Origin: Pyxidicoccus trucidator | Lineage (GTDB): Bacteria > Myxococcota > Myxococcia > Myxococcales > Myxococcaceae | Direction: 5' to 3' | Assembly: GCF_010894435.1 (NCBI RefSeq) | Contig: NZ_JAAIXZ010000001.1 | Span: 712,322-776,321, forward strand | DNA: 64,000 nucleotides | Part shown: in pieces, positions 16,410-21,302 of the stretch | Layout: every line of letters starts with the position of its first letter | Numbering within the stretch: the stretch's first letter is position 1 | Notes under the pieces: model-generated | Told to the model about the DNA's origin: nothing | The model's database searches: none | What the model saw: only the letters and a program-made list of their open reading frames with translations | Program-made: the position numbers and the translations under genes

Positions 16410-16554
16410 GCCACCTCGCCACTCGCTCCTCCGGGAAGGCCTCCAGGCGGAAGGGAATCGTCCTCACCCGGGCTCATGCCCATCTTTGTCTTGGACCTGA
16501 GCGGCCATGTCACCCTCATCTGGCGCGCTCCCCTGGGGCAAGTGAGGCCACACC

Positions 16555-17493
16555 ATGGCAGCCATCGTGGAGAACGAGAGACCCGGCGTCGTTCCAGCCG
16601 TCGCGGGTATACCCTTCAAGCTGAGCTGGAGCTCCATCCTGGGAGGTGCCTTCGTCGCTCTGGGCATCTGGATCCTCCTGTACTCGCTGGGTCTCGCGCT
16701 CGGGCTGTCCTCGGTGGACCCGGGTGACCCAGGCAGCGCCCGCTCGGCGGGCATCGGCACCGGCATCTGGAGCCTCATCGCGCCGCTCATCGCCCTCTTC
16801 GTCGGTGGCTACGTCGCCTCGCGCACCGCGGGAGTGGTGGACAAGATGGGGGGCGCACTGCACGGCGTCGTGCTGTGGGGCCTGACGACGCTCGCGGGCA
16901 CCCTCCTCATGGGCATGGCCATCTCCTCACTGATGGGCGCGGTGTTCAGCGTCGGCAAGACGGCGGTGGGCGCGGCGGGCACGGCCGTGTCGAGCGCCGC
17001 CTCTCAGGGTGGCGATGTCGCACAGACCTTCGGCCTGGACGCCAACGACGCGCTCGCGCCCATCAACCAGCGGCTGGCCCAGGAGGGCAAGCCGGCCATC
17101 ACCGCCAACCAGCTCCAGGCGGCCACGGGCGATGTCCTCAACACCGCCATCCGCACCGGCAAGCTCGACCGCGAGGTGCTCGTCAGCTCCATCGCGGAGA
17201 ACACGAAGCTGTCCCGGCAGGACTCGGAGGAGATCGCCACTCGCGTCGAGCAGCAGTTCAACCAGACGAAGGGGCAGGTGCAGCAGCAGGTGGGCCAGGT
17301 GGGCCAGCAGGTCCAGCAAGGCGCGCTCAAGGCCGCGGACACCACCGGTCGCGTCTTCTGGGGCATCTTCGGCGCGCTGCTGTTCGGCCTCGTCTCCGCG
17401 GTGCTCGGCTCCACGCTGGGCGTGAGCAAGCGCCAGCGCCTGTACGCCGAAGGGGCCATCACCCCGGGCTCCCGCCGCGAGGTGTATCCGTAG
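16555..17493 (+). CDS. Membrane protein with Gln-rich coiled segment
   Basis: 312-residue integral membrane protein. Hydrophobic spans lie at about 26-50, 70-92 and 102-128, a Gly/Ala-rich stretch follows, then a soluble helical part, a Gln/Val-rich coiled stretch (QVQQQVGQVGQQVQQ), and a last span about 262-285. GTGAGG seven bases before ATG 16555 supports the start. The layout resembles bacterial membrane proteins annotated as PhnA-like or YrzE-like, but I cannot assign a function. It is a monocistronic unit followed by a large perfect inverted repeat. Confidence 0.7.
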   Translation: MAAIVENERPGVVPAVAGIPFKLSWSSILGGAFVALGIWILLYSLGLALGLSSVDPGDPGSARSAGIGTGIWSLIAPLIALFVGGYVASRTAGVVDKMGGALHGVVLWGLTTLAGTLLMGMAISSLMGAVFSVGKTAVGAAGTAVSSAASQGGDVAQTFGLDANDALAPINQRLAQEGKPAITANQLQAATGDVLNTAIRTGKLDREVLVSSIAENTKLSRQDSEEIATRVEQQFNQTKGQVQQQVGQVGQQVQQGALKAADTTGRVFWGIFGALLFGLVSAVLGSTLGVSKRQRLYAEGAITPGSRREVYP

Positions 17494-17595
17494 GCGCGTG
17501 AGTCCGCGCGCCAGCGGAGCCCGGACCTCTCGAGGGTTTCACCGTGCGGTTCGGGCAGACCCAGACAACAGCGGGCCCGCCGACGGCCTCCAGCA

Positions 17596-17661
17596 GCGTG
17601 CTGTTCGGAAATGTCGGGACATTTCGCGGCGCAAAACCCCCGACATTTCCGAACAGCACGC
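17596..17661. repeat. Perfect 23-bp inverted repeat, 20-base loop
   Basis: Arms at 17596-17618 and 17639-17661 are exact reverse complements over 23 bp (left arm begins GCGTGCTGTTCGG, inner end GTCGGG). Inside the left half, AAATGTC and GACATTT make a second small palindrome, so the 9-mer AAATGTCGG occurs in several orientations. It lies between two plus-strand genes. It could terminate the membrane protein transcript, but there is no T tract and the arms are less GC-rich than the usual terminators here. A regulator site or a small palindromic repeat element is equally possible. Confidence 0.75.
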
Positions 17662-17737
17662 CCTCGGCCCCGCCCCCAGGCCGCCGGAGGAAGGACCGGC
17701 CGAGCGGATGACGCCCCCACTTCACCGCTTGGAGGCA

Positions 17738-17743
17738 TAGGCT
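17738..17743 (+). promoter_or_regulatory. Candidate -10 box TAGGCT before the AgmX-like gene
   Basis: TAGGCT ends ten nt before ATG 17754. This spacing matches the other TANNNT boxes and favours ATG 17754 over GTG 17748. Confidence 0.4.
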
Positions 17744-17753
17744 TCACGTGTCG

Positions 17754-18413
17754 ATGCCGAACCGCTCCATCATCCGCTGGGTCCTCATCCCCGGGCTGAG
17801 CCTGGGCGTGCTCGTCTTGAGCGCGGCCCTCTCCTTCTGGCTCACGCGGCCCGTGCTCCCGGAACCGTCCCGGGACATGCCCGAGCCCGCCACCCTGGCG
17901 CCGGAGTCCCTCCCCGCCGAGCCACCGTCCCGTCCCGCCGACCCGTCCCTGCCCCCCATCGACCCGCCAGCCGCCGTCCCACCGCCGCCCTTCCCGTCAC
18001 CCCGGAGCCAGCTCCCGGTAGCACCGGAGACCGCGCCGGCCGGCACGCGACGCGTGGTGGAAGTCGAGCCGGTCATCGAGTCCGCCACCGGGCGCATCGA
18101 CTCCCAGGACGTCCGCGTCGCCCTCCGCGCCGTGACGCCCCTCGTGCAGCAATGCTTCGAGGACGCGGCACAGCGCAACCGGGGGCCGCAGACGGTGCGG
18201 CTGCGCTTCACCGTGGAGCCCGGCGGTGAGCGGGGCGAGGCGGGCCAGCTGACCGGGGGCGAGCTGCTGGAGAGCACCATTCCGGACCCGATGGTGCAGG
18301 CGTGTGTGCTGGACTCGCTGCTGGACGCCCGGTTCCCGGCCCCGCCGGGTGGGGGGAAGGCCACGGTCGTCTACCCCTTCGAGTTCCGCGCGCCGGAGAA
18401 CGCGGGCCCGTAG
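17754..18413 (+). CDS. AgmX/PglI C-terminal domain-like anchored protein
   Basis: 219-residue protein with an N-terminal membrane anchor (VLIPGLSLGVLVLSAALSFW), a long Pro-rich periplasmic linker (about 35-100), and a C-terminal domain: GRIDSQDVRVALRAVTPLVQ, QQCFEDAAQRN, VRLRFTVEPGG, VQACVLDSLLDARFPAP and VVYPFEFRAP. This resembles the AgmX/PglI C-terminal domain and TonB-like C-termini of myxobacterial gliding proteins. Two cysteines (QQC, QAC) are typical. A GTG at 17748 is an alternative start. A decayed copy of its C-terminal part is found at 20254-20407, beyond the DUF6311-like gene. Confidence 0.75.
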   Translation: MPNRSIIRWVLIPGLSLGVLVLSAALSFWLTRPVLPEPSRDMPEPATLAPESLPAEPPSRPADPSLPPIDPPAAVPPPPFPSPRSQLPVAPETAPAGTRRVVEVEPVIESATGRIDSQDVRVALRAVTPLVQQCFEDAAQRNRGPQTVRLRFTVEPGGERGEAGQLTGGELLESTIPDPMVQACVLDSLLDARFPAPPGGGKATVVYPFEFRAPENAGP

Positions 18414-18442
18414 CCCGTCAGAAGCCCGCCGCCGCGGAGGCG

Positions 18443-20185
18443 CTACCCACCGGAAGGCACCGCGTCGAGGACGCACATCCAGAGCCCCTCTTCCTGGGTG
18501 CAGCGGGTGCCGGGAATGGCGCGGAACTGCCCCAGCCGCTGGGGGATGGAGAGGTAGACAATCTCCGGGTCCAACCGGCCCGCCTGGACATCGGCATCCA
18601 GCCCCAGGCAGTAGGCCTGCGCGCGGGAGTCGTCCAGCCGCGCCACATAGCCGCTGTTGAACGTCAGCCCGAGGAGGTACGCGCGGTACGCCCAGCGGTG
18701 GAAGTCCGTGGGGCCGGCGCGGCAGCCCCGGCCCGAGCCGTCATGGGACTGCGGCGGATACAGCACCAGGTGCTTGCGCCCCCTGGCGGCCTCGCGGAGC
18801 GCGTCGGAGGGCCGCGGGTGCCACCGCCCGCCCTCGTGGGCCTGCCGCCCGCCGCCCAGGTCGACGTCGAGCACCTGCAGCGTCAGGGCCAGCGCCAGCA
18901 GCACGGGCGCGGAGGCCGGCTTCGGGAGGCGAAGGAGCGCGAGGGAGGAGCCCAGCAGGACGAGGTAGTAGAGCGGCCACACGAAGCGGCCCGAGGCGCG
19001 GAAGGCCTCCACCCACCGCAGGCCGGGCCGGTAGAGCGCCGAGACATCGGCGACCTGCTCCCCCATCCAGGTGATGCGCCAGGAGAGCGCGAAGAACGCC
19101 AGCCCCAGGGCCACCACGGCGACGGGGCCCCACCGCCGCCACAGCCGCCGCACGTCTCGCGCCCTCAGGCCCGCCAGGACGAGCGCGGCCCCGAGGGCGA
19201 AGAGCCCGCCCACGCCCAGGTAGCCGAAGCCCTCGTACTGTCCGCTCGCCCTGCGCAGGTTGGGAAGGAAGCGAGACCAGTTGATGTCGCGGTACCCGAA
19301 CGGGTTGAGGAAGGTCGCCAGGTCCGCGGAGAAGTCGCCGAAGCCGACGGCGCCCAGGGGCCCGGTCATCCCGAAGTAGCCGAAGCCCGCGAGGAGCCCG
19401 GCCACGGCGGCGACGTCCACCCCCGCGGCGAGCGCCGGCCAACGCCAGCCCCATTGCCCCTCCAGCGCGGTGCGCACGCAGAGCGACACCGCGAGCGCCA
19501 GCACCATGGCGGCGAGCACGGGGTGGATGCCCGCCGCGAGCACGCAGAGCAGCAGCCCGAGGCCCAGGGCCCGCTTCGCGTCTCGCGCGTCCCGCTGGGG
19601 GAGGAGGTGGAGCCCCACCAGGAGCACGATGAGCCAGTGGGCGCTGAGGGCGTCGTGCGACATGCTCATCCGGGCGAGGAGCGCGGGCGACAGCACGAGC
19701 AGCGCGCCGATGAGCCACTGGAGCGGCACCCGCGCGCCCATCCCCCGCGCCACCCACGCCCCCACCGCGCCCTGGAGTCCGAGGCACAGGGCCATCCAGG
19801 GCCCGATGTACTGGAAGTCCACCGGCAACAGCGCTGAGAACGGCCGGAGCAGCAACCCCACCCAGGGCAGCGAGTCCGTGTACCCGAGCGTCGTCCCCAG
19901 CGGATGGACGTACCCGGGAATGGCGCCCAGCGGCAGCCCGGGTGGCGAGTTGCGGAAGAAGAGCCACCCCAGCAGGTGCTGGCTGAAGTCGTCGCGCATG
20001 AGCCAGCCGAGCCGGGTCGGGTCCAGCGCCGCCGGCCCATACATGGCGAGGAACGTGAGGACCCCCACCAGCGCCGCGCCCAGGGGCCCCGTCTGCGCCA
20101 CGGCGAAGCGCGCGGCGGAGGCCAGGACGCGCCGCGCCCCACCACGCGAGCTGGGGGCTGGGGGGACGGGGCTCACGTCGGACAT
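18443..20185 (-). CDS. Polytopic membrane protein, DUF6311-like (glycosyltransferase-type)
   Basis: 580-residue protein with about eleven hydrophobic spans and a soluble C-terminal domain. The first luminal loop contains RDDFSQHLLGWLFFRNSP, with adjacent acidic residues as in lipid-linked-sugar glycosyltransferases of GT-C fold, and the loop FLNPFGYRDINWSRFLP later. The C-terminal part has two or three cysteines near the end (GTRCTQEE, LWMCVLD). From memory this matches the DUF6311 family; sugar transfer is inferred from architecture only. Start 20185 (MSDVSPVPP) avoids a long Arg-rich upstream frame. It lies head-on against the AgmX-like gene and is bracketed by related sequence on both sides. 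Confidence 0.75.
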   Translation of the reverse strand: MSDVSPVPPAPSSRGGARRVLASAARFAVAQTGPLGAALVGVLTFLAMYGPAALDPTRLGWLMRDDFSQHLLGWLFFRNSPPGLPLGAIPGYVHPLGTTLGYTDSLPWVGLLLRPFSALLPVDFQYIGPWMALCLGLQGAVGAWVARGMGARVPLQWLIGALLVLSPALLARMSMSHDALSAHWLIVLLVGLHLLPQRDARDAKRALGLGLLLCVLAAGIHPVLAAMVLALAVSLCVRTALEGQWGWRWPALAAGVDVAAVAGLLAGFGYFGMTGPLGAVGFGDFSADLATFLNPFGYRDINWSRFLPNLRRASGQYEGFGYLGVGGLFALGAALVLAGLRARDVRRLWRRWGPVAVVALGLAFFALSWRITWMGEQVADVSALYRPGLRWVEAFRASGRFVWPLYYLVLLGSSLALLRLPKPASAPVLLALALTLQVLDVDLGGGRQAHEGGRWHPRPSDALREAARGRKHLVLYPPQSHDGSGRGCRAGPTDFHRWAYRAYLLGLTFNSGYVARLDDSRAQAYCLGLDADVQAGRLDPEIVYLSIPQRLGQFRAIPGTRCTQEEGLWMCVLDAVPSGG

Positions 20186-20253
20186 GGGCAGCGCGCTAAG
20201 CACGGAGGTTTCAGAGCCGTCAAGGAATCGAAGCAGGGCGCCCCGCCGGAGGC

Positions 20254-20407
20254 GCCCTCCGCCACGACTCCACCCGTGCAACAATGTTCCGAGGATGTGG
20301 GACAGCGGAACGCCTGGGCGCCCGGTGTCCGGCCCCGGCGGATGGGGGGAAGGCAACGCTCGTCGCCCCCCGGGGAGTTCCGCGTACTGGGGGAGGCTGG
20401 CCGGTAG
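20254..20407 (+). pseudogene. Decayed fragment of an AgmX-like gene
   Basis: DNA here aligns with the 3' part of the AgmX-like gene at 17754-18413. The first block (20254-20312) matches about 18120-18180 and reads VQQCSEDVGQRN versus VQQCFEDAAQRN in the intact protein. A second block (20317-20407) matches 18323-18413 with one extra base; it ends GEFRVLGEAGR-stop against FEFRAPENAGP-stop. About 147 bases between the blocks are missing and no start codon context remains. Most differences are spread out, so the copy is old. It lies in the 5' region between the DUF6311-like gene and the GNAT gene. Confidence 0.75.
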
Positions 20408-20447
20408 GGCCGGGTTTTGCGTAAGGTCCCCGAAGCCCCCCATCTTC

Positions 20448-21284
20448 ATGCCCGTCACCGTCGAACAGCTTGGTTCCCAGGACGCGGATTCCCTGCGTGC
20501 ATTGCTGTCGAAGGACCCGGTCCACAACCTCTACCTGCTGGGGTTGCTGGAGGAGTTCGGCATTGCCCCGCGCGGGCGGGTGCCCTTCGCCTTCTATGGG
20601 CGCTTCGACAACGCGGTGCTCACCGCCGCCGTCTTCGTCGGGGGTGAGGGGGGCCTGGTGGTGCCCAGCGCGAGCGACGCCTCGGCCACCAGCGTGATTG
20701 CCGACGCGCTGGCCTCGTCGATGAAGCTGCGGGGCACGGTGGGGGACAAGTCCGCGGTGGACGCGCTGGTGCGCAGCCTGTGCCAGGGCAAGCCGCGCCT
20801 GTCTCGCACGCAGCGGCTGTTCAGCGTGTCGGCGGACGACCTGGGCCCCTTCACCAACCCGCTGCTGCGGCTGGCGCGTGAGGAGGACATCCCCCGGCTG
20901 CTGCCGCTGGCGCAGGGCTTCGTGCGCGAGGCCCTGGAGAGAGACCCGCTGGCGGAGGACCCCCAGGGTTACGAGGCCCGCGTCGTCCAGCGCGTGCGCC
21001 AGCGCCGCACGTACGTGCTGGAGGAGGCGGGCGGGCTGGTGTTCAAGGTCGACATCGGCAGCCGCTCCCAGTACGGCGCGGAGCTGGAGGGCCTCTACAC
21101 GCTGCCGGCCGAGCGGAAGAAGGGGAATGCCACCCTGTGTCTCGGGCAGATTTCCCGGCACCTGCTGTCCTCGCTGCCCCGGCTGACGATGCGCATCGAC
21201 GAGCGCGACGAGAGCACCGCGCGCATCGCCCGCAAGGTCGGCTACCTGGCCGGCCGCACGCAGCGACTCGTCCTGGTCGACTAG
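20448..21284 (+). CDS. GNAT-family N-acetyltransferase with DUF4081-like N-terminus
   Basis: 278-residue protein. The N-terminal half (SLRALLSKDPVHNLYLLGLL, RGRVPFAFYGRFDN) resembles the accessory domain that precedes some GNAT domains. The C-terminal half carries the acetyl-CoA fold: LVFKVDIGSRSQYGAELEG, LYTLPAERKKGNATLC as the motif A region, and a final IARKVGYLAGRTQRLVLVD. Start ATG 20448 was chosen because it follows the decayed AgmX fragment and has a MPVTVEQL start; no strong ribosome site is seen. miaE follows after 28 bases. Acceptor unknown. Confidence 0.78.
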   Translation: MPVTVEQLGSQDADSLRALLSKDPVHNLYLLGLLEEFGIAPRGRVPFAFYGRFDNAVLTAAVFVGGEGGLVVPSASDASATSVIADALASSMKLRGTVGDKSAVDALVRSLCQGKPRLSRTQRLFSVSADDLGPFTNPLLRLAREEDIPRLLPLAQGFVREALERDPLAEDPQGYEARVVQRVRQRRTYVLEEAGGLVFKVDIGSRSQYGAELEGLYTLPAERKKGNATLCLGQISRHLLSSLPRLTMRIDERDESTARIARKVGYLAGRTQRLVLVD

Positions 21285-21296
21285 CGGGGCCTGCCG

Positions 21297-21302
21297 TACA
21301 GT
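21297..21302 (+). promoter_or_regulatory. Candidate -10 box TACAGT before miaE
   Basis: TACAGT ends ten nt before ATG 21313, in the 28-base gap after the GNAT gene. It belongs to the TANNNT group, though read-through from the GNAT gene is also plausible. Confidence 0.35.

Follow-up and report, generated by a model that had tools for sequence, protein, structure and literature searches.

Two kinds of described system come closest to the arrangement reported here. In duplication-degeneration-complementation, each copy of a duplicated gene loses a different ancestral function and both copies are kept, and in genomic islands at gene 3' ends the native 3' fragment of the target gene is displaced. 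The locus analysed here lies in a window of 64,000 nucleotides (the whole stretch of DNA examined) from the 12.67-Mb genome of Pyxidicoccus trucidator, and carries an AgmX-like gene, a DUF6311 gene, a frameshifted second copy of the AgmX-like 3' end and a GNAT gene. As in duplication-degeneration-complementation, the two copies appear to lose different functions, but the duplicate is partial, and the two functions are the encoding of a protein and the regulation of an adjacent gene by the same nucleotides. As in islands at 3' ends, the near copy is complete with an altered end and the far copy is a fragment with the native end; unlike in these, there is no integrase in the gene that was searched and no identical att core, and other DUF6311 carriers hold the gene elsewhere. 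Comparison with relatives suggests that coding and control functions once carried by the same nucleotides have been separated naturally at this locus.

The intact AgmX-like gene (17748-18413, + strand) is an open reading frame of 221 codons, recognised by a match to NF033768 and an alignment of 20 sequences. Its protein has an N-terminal hydrophobic stretch, a proline-rich middle and an AgmX/PglI C-terminal domain with two cysteines that are invariant in 20/20 sequences. The match to NF033768, the model of this domain, reaches 62.0 bits over residues 117-214 (curated cut-off, 40), and no other Pfam or NCBIfam family exceeded its cut-off; the GltG model (NF033760) scored 36.9 bits, over the C-terminal part only, against a curated cut-off of 650. 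The name AgmX-like, used in the earlier note, thus holds for the C-terminal domain and loses its footing beyond it. One solved-structure match (E 0.009) fell in the proline-rich part and was taken as meaningless. The gene here called GNAT (20448-21284, + strand), the presumed user of the element discussed below, has weak acetyltransferase matches below the Pfam cut-offs. The comparison set comprised 27 genomes of the genus, namely the window's own and 26 others, including G020 (Myxococcus sp. RHSTA-1-4), G023 (Pyxidicoccus caerfyrddinensis) and G012 (Pyxidicoccus fallax). The order AgmX-like, GNAT, MiaE-like, CitM-like is the same in 11/11 relatives fetched at length, and in a tree of three neighbouring genes, covering 11 of the 27 genomes, the window forms a separate lineage beside G002, G023 and G010.

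The remnant (20253-20407, + strand) is a frameshifted copy of 155 nt that corresponds to the 3'-terminal ~295 nt of the AgmX-like gene (18119-18413, + strand). Three blocks are shared: 18139-18168 with 20271-20300 (30 nt, 77% identical), 18321-18377 with 20314-20370 (57 nt, 84%) and 18374-18413 with 20368-20407 (40 nt, 73%). Their spacings of 2132, 1993 and 1994 nt amount to a net loss of 139 nt from the first block to the second and of 138 nt overall, slightly less than the roughly 147 missing bases estimated earlier, and the remnant's middle block is in a different frame from its two ends. With these two defects the remnant cannot encode an AgmX-like protein. When 20241-20410 was aligned with the AgmX-like gene, the local score was 81, against a mean of 23.4, a standard deviation of 3.3 and a maximum of 37 for 2000 random segments of the window, segments near either copy being skipped. 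With cheap long gaps, 20229-20450 scored 233.8 against the G023 gene, compared with a background maximum of 102.4 over 2935 segments. The remnant can be traced back to about 20253 (20246 against G010). The recurrence described in the earlier note, with both blocks on the same strand and the membrane protein gene between them, was found as claimed, and the repeat of the AgmX-like 3' end is confirmed as real.

In all 26 other genomes of the genus, a single AgmX-like tail lies directly before GNAT at a distance of a few tens of nucleotides, and in none of them does DUF6311 or a second AgmX-like copy lie between the two genes. A search over the 27 genomes found the DUF6311-remnant junction whole only in that of the window. 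Upstream of DUF6311, homology stops at 20228/20229 against both G020 and G012, just outside a CTTGACG motif, and on the other side the homology to the G020 DUF6311 locus reaches about the AgmX-like stop codon, near 18413. The ends of this homology therefore place the inserted piece (~1.8 kb, not assigned to a strand) at about 18414-20228, the left edge resting on G020 and the right edge on G020 and G012. The repeat copies abut it, at the stop codon on the left and within about 25 nt on the right. Since 26/26 relatives lack both the insert and the second copy, the comparison shows that one of the 27 genomes gained a piece of ~1.8 kb with DUF6311 just past the stop codon of the AgmX-like gene, and that the target was duplicated. 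The earlier suggestion of a tandem duplication or a repeat-bounded insertion therefore stands as duplication plus insertion, but the word "old" does not fit, on the scale of the genus, an event seen in a single genome. Insertion with target duplication is an ordinary kind of genome change.

As judged against the relatives, the two copies have decayed in opposite ways. The reference was the majority letter of six of the 26 relatives (G023, G010, G002, G021, G020 and G012). The coding copy differs from it at 7/107 body positions (2/56 and 5/51 in the two blocks) and at 8/33 in the tail, the final 33 nt, whereas the remnant differs at 19/107 in the body (8/56 and 11/51), at 0/33 in the tail and at 0/20 after the stop codon; its deletion of ~139 nt and its frameshifts come on top of the 19 and are uncounted. 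The coding copy has nothing to compare past the stop codon, because the insert starts there. Fisher tests gave p 0.00035 for the contrast of copy by region (7 and 8 against 19 and 0), p 0.0004 for the remnant body against its 53 nt and p 0.008 for body against tail in the coding copy, and if the 53 nt had changed at the rate of the remnant's body, the probability of finding none of them altered would be 3e-5; these values are guides only, because the segments were picked after the alignment had been viewed and the relatives share ancestry. The 53 nt in question (20375-20427, + strand), comprising the old AgmX-like tail, its stop codon and intergenic DNA through the motif TAAGGT, are identical at 53/53 positions to G023 and G002. 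Among the relatives, with the gene undivided, the spread is 0-3 differences in the first block, 0-4 in the second, 0-4 in the tail (most in G012, 4/33) and 0-2 after the stop (G021, 2/20), the same relatives having contributed to the majority letter. Their body differences range from 1 to 7 of 107, and the coding copy's 7 equals the highest of them, that of G002. The complementary losses expected of a subfunctionalised pair are thus present (7/107 and 8/33 against 19/107 and 0/33), in segments picked post hoc. The phrase "decayed duplicate" in the earlier note is right in that the remnant is a frameshifted pseudogene, but it is the remnant that keeps the native 3' end (53/53 nt), and the intact gene that has the altered tail. 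Each retained part appears to be under constraint and may still function.

The retained element is most likely the GNAT promoter, a reading that draws on conservation across the genus and beyond. The last residues of the AgmX-like protein vary across the genus and are sometimes absent (alignment of 20), and the motif [A/G]CTGGCC[C/G]GT is common to 24/26 relatives, with the codon before GGCC[G/C]GT being GCT or ACT. These are rare codons: in three genes of ten relatives GCT makes up 1.1% of alanine codons and ACT 0.9% of threonine codons, and in nine genes of the window the figures are 3.1% and 1.4%. In the window, the coding copy has exchanged the rare GCT for the common GCG, and the remnant retains GCT. 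The hexamer TAAGGT (20422-20427, + strand), a candidate -10 box for GNAT, is kept about 20 nt before the GNAT start in 24/26 relatives, and the exact TTTTGCGTAAGGT occurs in 18/26. G003 and G005, the exceptions to [A/G]CTGGCC[C/G]GT, share a deletion that took out its central part; most of the element is gone, and GNAT is still present. Outside the genus, ten GNAT loci were checked among 12 genomes, of which two (G034 and G036) have TAAGGT at the matching place and G033 has TATGGT before GNAT; in the remaining seven there was no such match or the locus was cut. Over 20-nt steps in 26 genomes, conservation is 0.80-0.84 in the element and 0.42-0.94 in the flanking coding DNA; the last 20 nt before GNAT, at 0.71, fall below the element. 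No sigma-70 consensus was found in the element. An Rfam search of 16500-21300 gave nothing above gathering and two weak matches, one of them over the palindrome at 17595-17662. A hairpin inside the element (CTGGCC-GGTAG-GGCCGG, then GTTTT; 20397-20413, + strand), one of three terminator-like sites where 0.7 are expected, suggests that the element might instead terminate transcription of the AgmX-like gene. However, compensatory changes were seen in 0/11 predicted pairs over 18 sequences, a terminator would have little to do next to a frameshifted pseudogene that follows an inserted gene, and yet the element is what has been kept, and TAAGGT is conserved in 24/26 relatives. Moreover, in G034, from another genus, TTTTCGCGTAAGGT precedes GNAT with no AgmX-like gene in the available 728 nt upstream, although in G034 both genes are found close to the ends of contigs, so they may be neighbours after all, ~1 kb apart. 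A terminator is therefore unlikely, and the element is presumably kept by selection, most likely as the GNAT promoter.

Taken together, we consider it probable that the insertion of DUF6311 and the duplication of the 3' end befell a gene end that doubled as the GNAT promoter, and that the two jobs were then separated. In the ancestral state, the final AgmX-like codons, together with about 20 nt past the stop, would also have acted as the GNAT promoter. In this lineage, the ~1.8-kb piece, consisting of DUF6311 and ~43 nt of its upstream region, would have entered right after the stop codon, leaving ~295 nt of the AgmX-like 3' end on both sides of the insert. The copy beside the gene body would then have had the coding job alone, and its tail would have drifted; the copy beside GNAT would have driven GNAT alone, with collapse of its coding part and an unchanged 53-nt control stretch. 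The simplest origin would be a single event with a target duplication of ~295 nt, for instance by template switching during repair. The same anatomy would result from two steps: a tandem duplication of the AgmX-like gene, or of its 3' half, followed by an insertion of DUF6311 that separated the copies and took away the front of the second. Tandem duplication is common, and this route is possible, but it is the less probable one: a second copy lies between the AgmX-like gene and GNAT in 0/26 relatives, and both copies abut the insert. It is rather improbable that the incoming DNA brought an AgmX-like 3' end of its own and displaced the native end beyond the insert, in a manner that may be likened to islands at tRNA genes. 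Such an event would explain the native end of the far copy and the odd tail of the near one, and the near copy's end does resemble that of G012 (35 nt, 83%); against it, the near copy's body is native-like (7/107), and DUF6311 is not at the AgmX-like gene in 17 other carriers. The Pfam search, run with one gene of the insert, gave a match to DUF6311 alone and no recombinase, and there is no long identical core between the copies, which together speak against a site-specific element. A chance likeness of GC-rich stretches can be dismissed almost entirely, even though weak repeats are many in the GC-rich DNA of the window (families D4 to D16), since no random segment scored above 37 and the DNA flanking the remnant is identical to the relatives' native 3' end. 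The single insertion with target duplication thus remains the preferred history.

The DUF6311 gene (18443-20185, - strand) encodes a membrane protein of 580 aa that matches PF19830 (E 7.1e-30; 105.2 bits over residues 37-337, gathering cut-off 27). A sequence search gave no solved structure for it, and no paper on DUF6311 was found in the literature, as far as its partly available texts go. A model built from 19 sequences (pLDDT 83.9, pTM 0.86) has a predicted GT-C-like fold. Its top solved matches in Foldseek are AftA, oligosaccharyltransferases and ArnT, all of them GT-C enzymes; AftA, ArnT and STT3 are examples of GT-C membrane glycosyltransferases. Four matches had E 0.001 or better, with TM-scores below 0.5 and rmsd mostly of 8-15 A; that to AftA has E 4.6e-5 and probability 1.00, but a TM-score of only 0.47, an rmsd of 12 A and 13% identity. 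Since the best solved matches are GT-C enzymes, the protein likely belongs to the GT-C fold class. Asp66, invariant in 19/19 sequences, may by analogy be comparable to the catalytic acidic residue of the first outer loop of GT-C enzymes. Against G020, DUF6311 has dN 0.100, dS 0.272 and dN/dS 0.37, and the AgmX-like gene dN 0.139, dS 0.424 and dN/dS 0.33; both look constrained, these pairwise values also spanning the time before the insertion.

Close DUF6311 orthologs (65% identity or more) are present in 17 of the 26 other genomes and absent from nine, and all 17 sit at places other than the AgmX-like gene. Sorted by flanking DNA, nine of them share one setting, five share another, and G002, G020 and G012 each have their own; the window adds a sixth, in a count for which one flank is missing for G026 and for G012. 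The region upstream of DUF6311 (20186-20228, - strand), common to relatives at other loci, ends beside CTTGACG (20218-20224), a motif that precedes the gene in the other lineages too, apart from G026, whose sequence breaks off there; some start points in the flank and upstream comparisons are offset by tens of nucleotides, partial matches having been extended. Common DNA ends at most ~10 nt upstream of CTTGACG, both among the window, G020 and G012 mutually and between G002 and the xanthus-like group. The conserved upstream stretch (20190-20224, - strand) reads CTTGACG ... GTGCTTCAAG, and two letters of GCTTCAAGC are missing in the window's genome. The G002 gene (G002:C1:3552059-3553762, L104) is 85% identical at the DNA level to that of G006, of the xanthus-like group, and 76% to the window's; as this runs against the neighbour-gene tree, some transfer between lineages is likely. 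It is very doubtful that DUF6311 forms a mobile unit consisting of one gene, with nearly fixed ends and without its own recombinase, of which the insertion at the AgmX-like gene would be one recent landing. At G020:C33:80436-83936 lies the xanthus-like site without DUF6311, its flanks ~530 bp apart instead of ~1.9 kb.

The G020 copy of DUF6311 sits upstream of a gene that, from a reading of its open reading frame, is uracil-DNA-glycosylase-like, and the G012 copy follows a radical-SAM-like gene. The latter adjoins the glycosylase-like gene in G021, which matches it over ~1.4 kb. The corresponding place in the window's own genome has no DUF6311; all that lies there beside the glycosylase-like gene is a short segment that matches the start of the radical-SAM-like gene (G000:C6:239090-239302). 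This place was rejected as a proven site of departure, because G023, G010 and G002 also hold only such a short piece. Flanking repeats as a rule at DUF6311 sites were likewise discarded. Eight of the 17 other carriers were checked (G020, G002, G006, G018, G003, G004, G013 and G005), and all lack a duplication like that of the window (E 4e-15): the best same-strand flank match is 21 nt with E 0.001, 2.6 kb from the gene (G006), and G003 has an inverted match of 41 nt with E 9e-5. Such weak or distant matches therefore speak for no general rule of flanking duplication.

Upstream of the AgmX-like gene, the DNA is variable between relatives (L092, L094, L095, L096, L099, L100 and L102). The membrane-protein open reading frame at 16555-17493 stands near the AgmX-like gene in G020, G021 and G012 and 2 to 6 kb from it in G006, G008, G011 and G004; in G023, G002 and G010 it lies outside the fetched stretch, and G026 is cut by a contig end. 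The palindrome at 17595-17662, with a perfect inverted repeat of 23 nt, is one of 18 occurrences in the genome, three of which are incomplete, of a palindromic repeat of ~66 nt. It was considered and rejected as the agent of insertion: the single local copy lies ~85 nt before the AgmX-like gene, at neither junction, and an arm resembling it occurs in that intergenic gap in G021, where the insert is absent. An AgmX-like gene is also carried by BNCN01000002.1 (L160), titled Comamonas sp. KCTC 72670 and probably a mislabelled myxobacterium. The literature seen in part on AgmX, on promoter or pseudogene reuse after duplication, on Pyxidicoccus duplications and on palindromic repeats held nothing on point.

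Where the same DNA codes for the end of one protein and controls the next gene, comparison alone can hardly demonstrate it, since either role keeps the same letters conserved. At this locus, the separated copies would let the coding half and the control half each be read alone. The locus also illustrates how a gene may enter a packed bacterial neighbourhood with the target gene and the gene behind it left unbroken.
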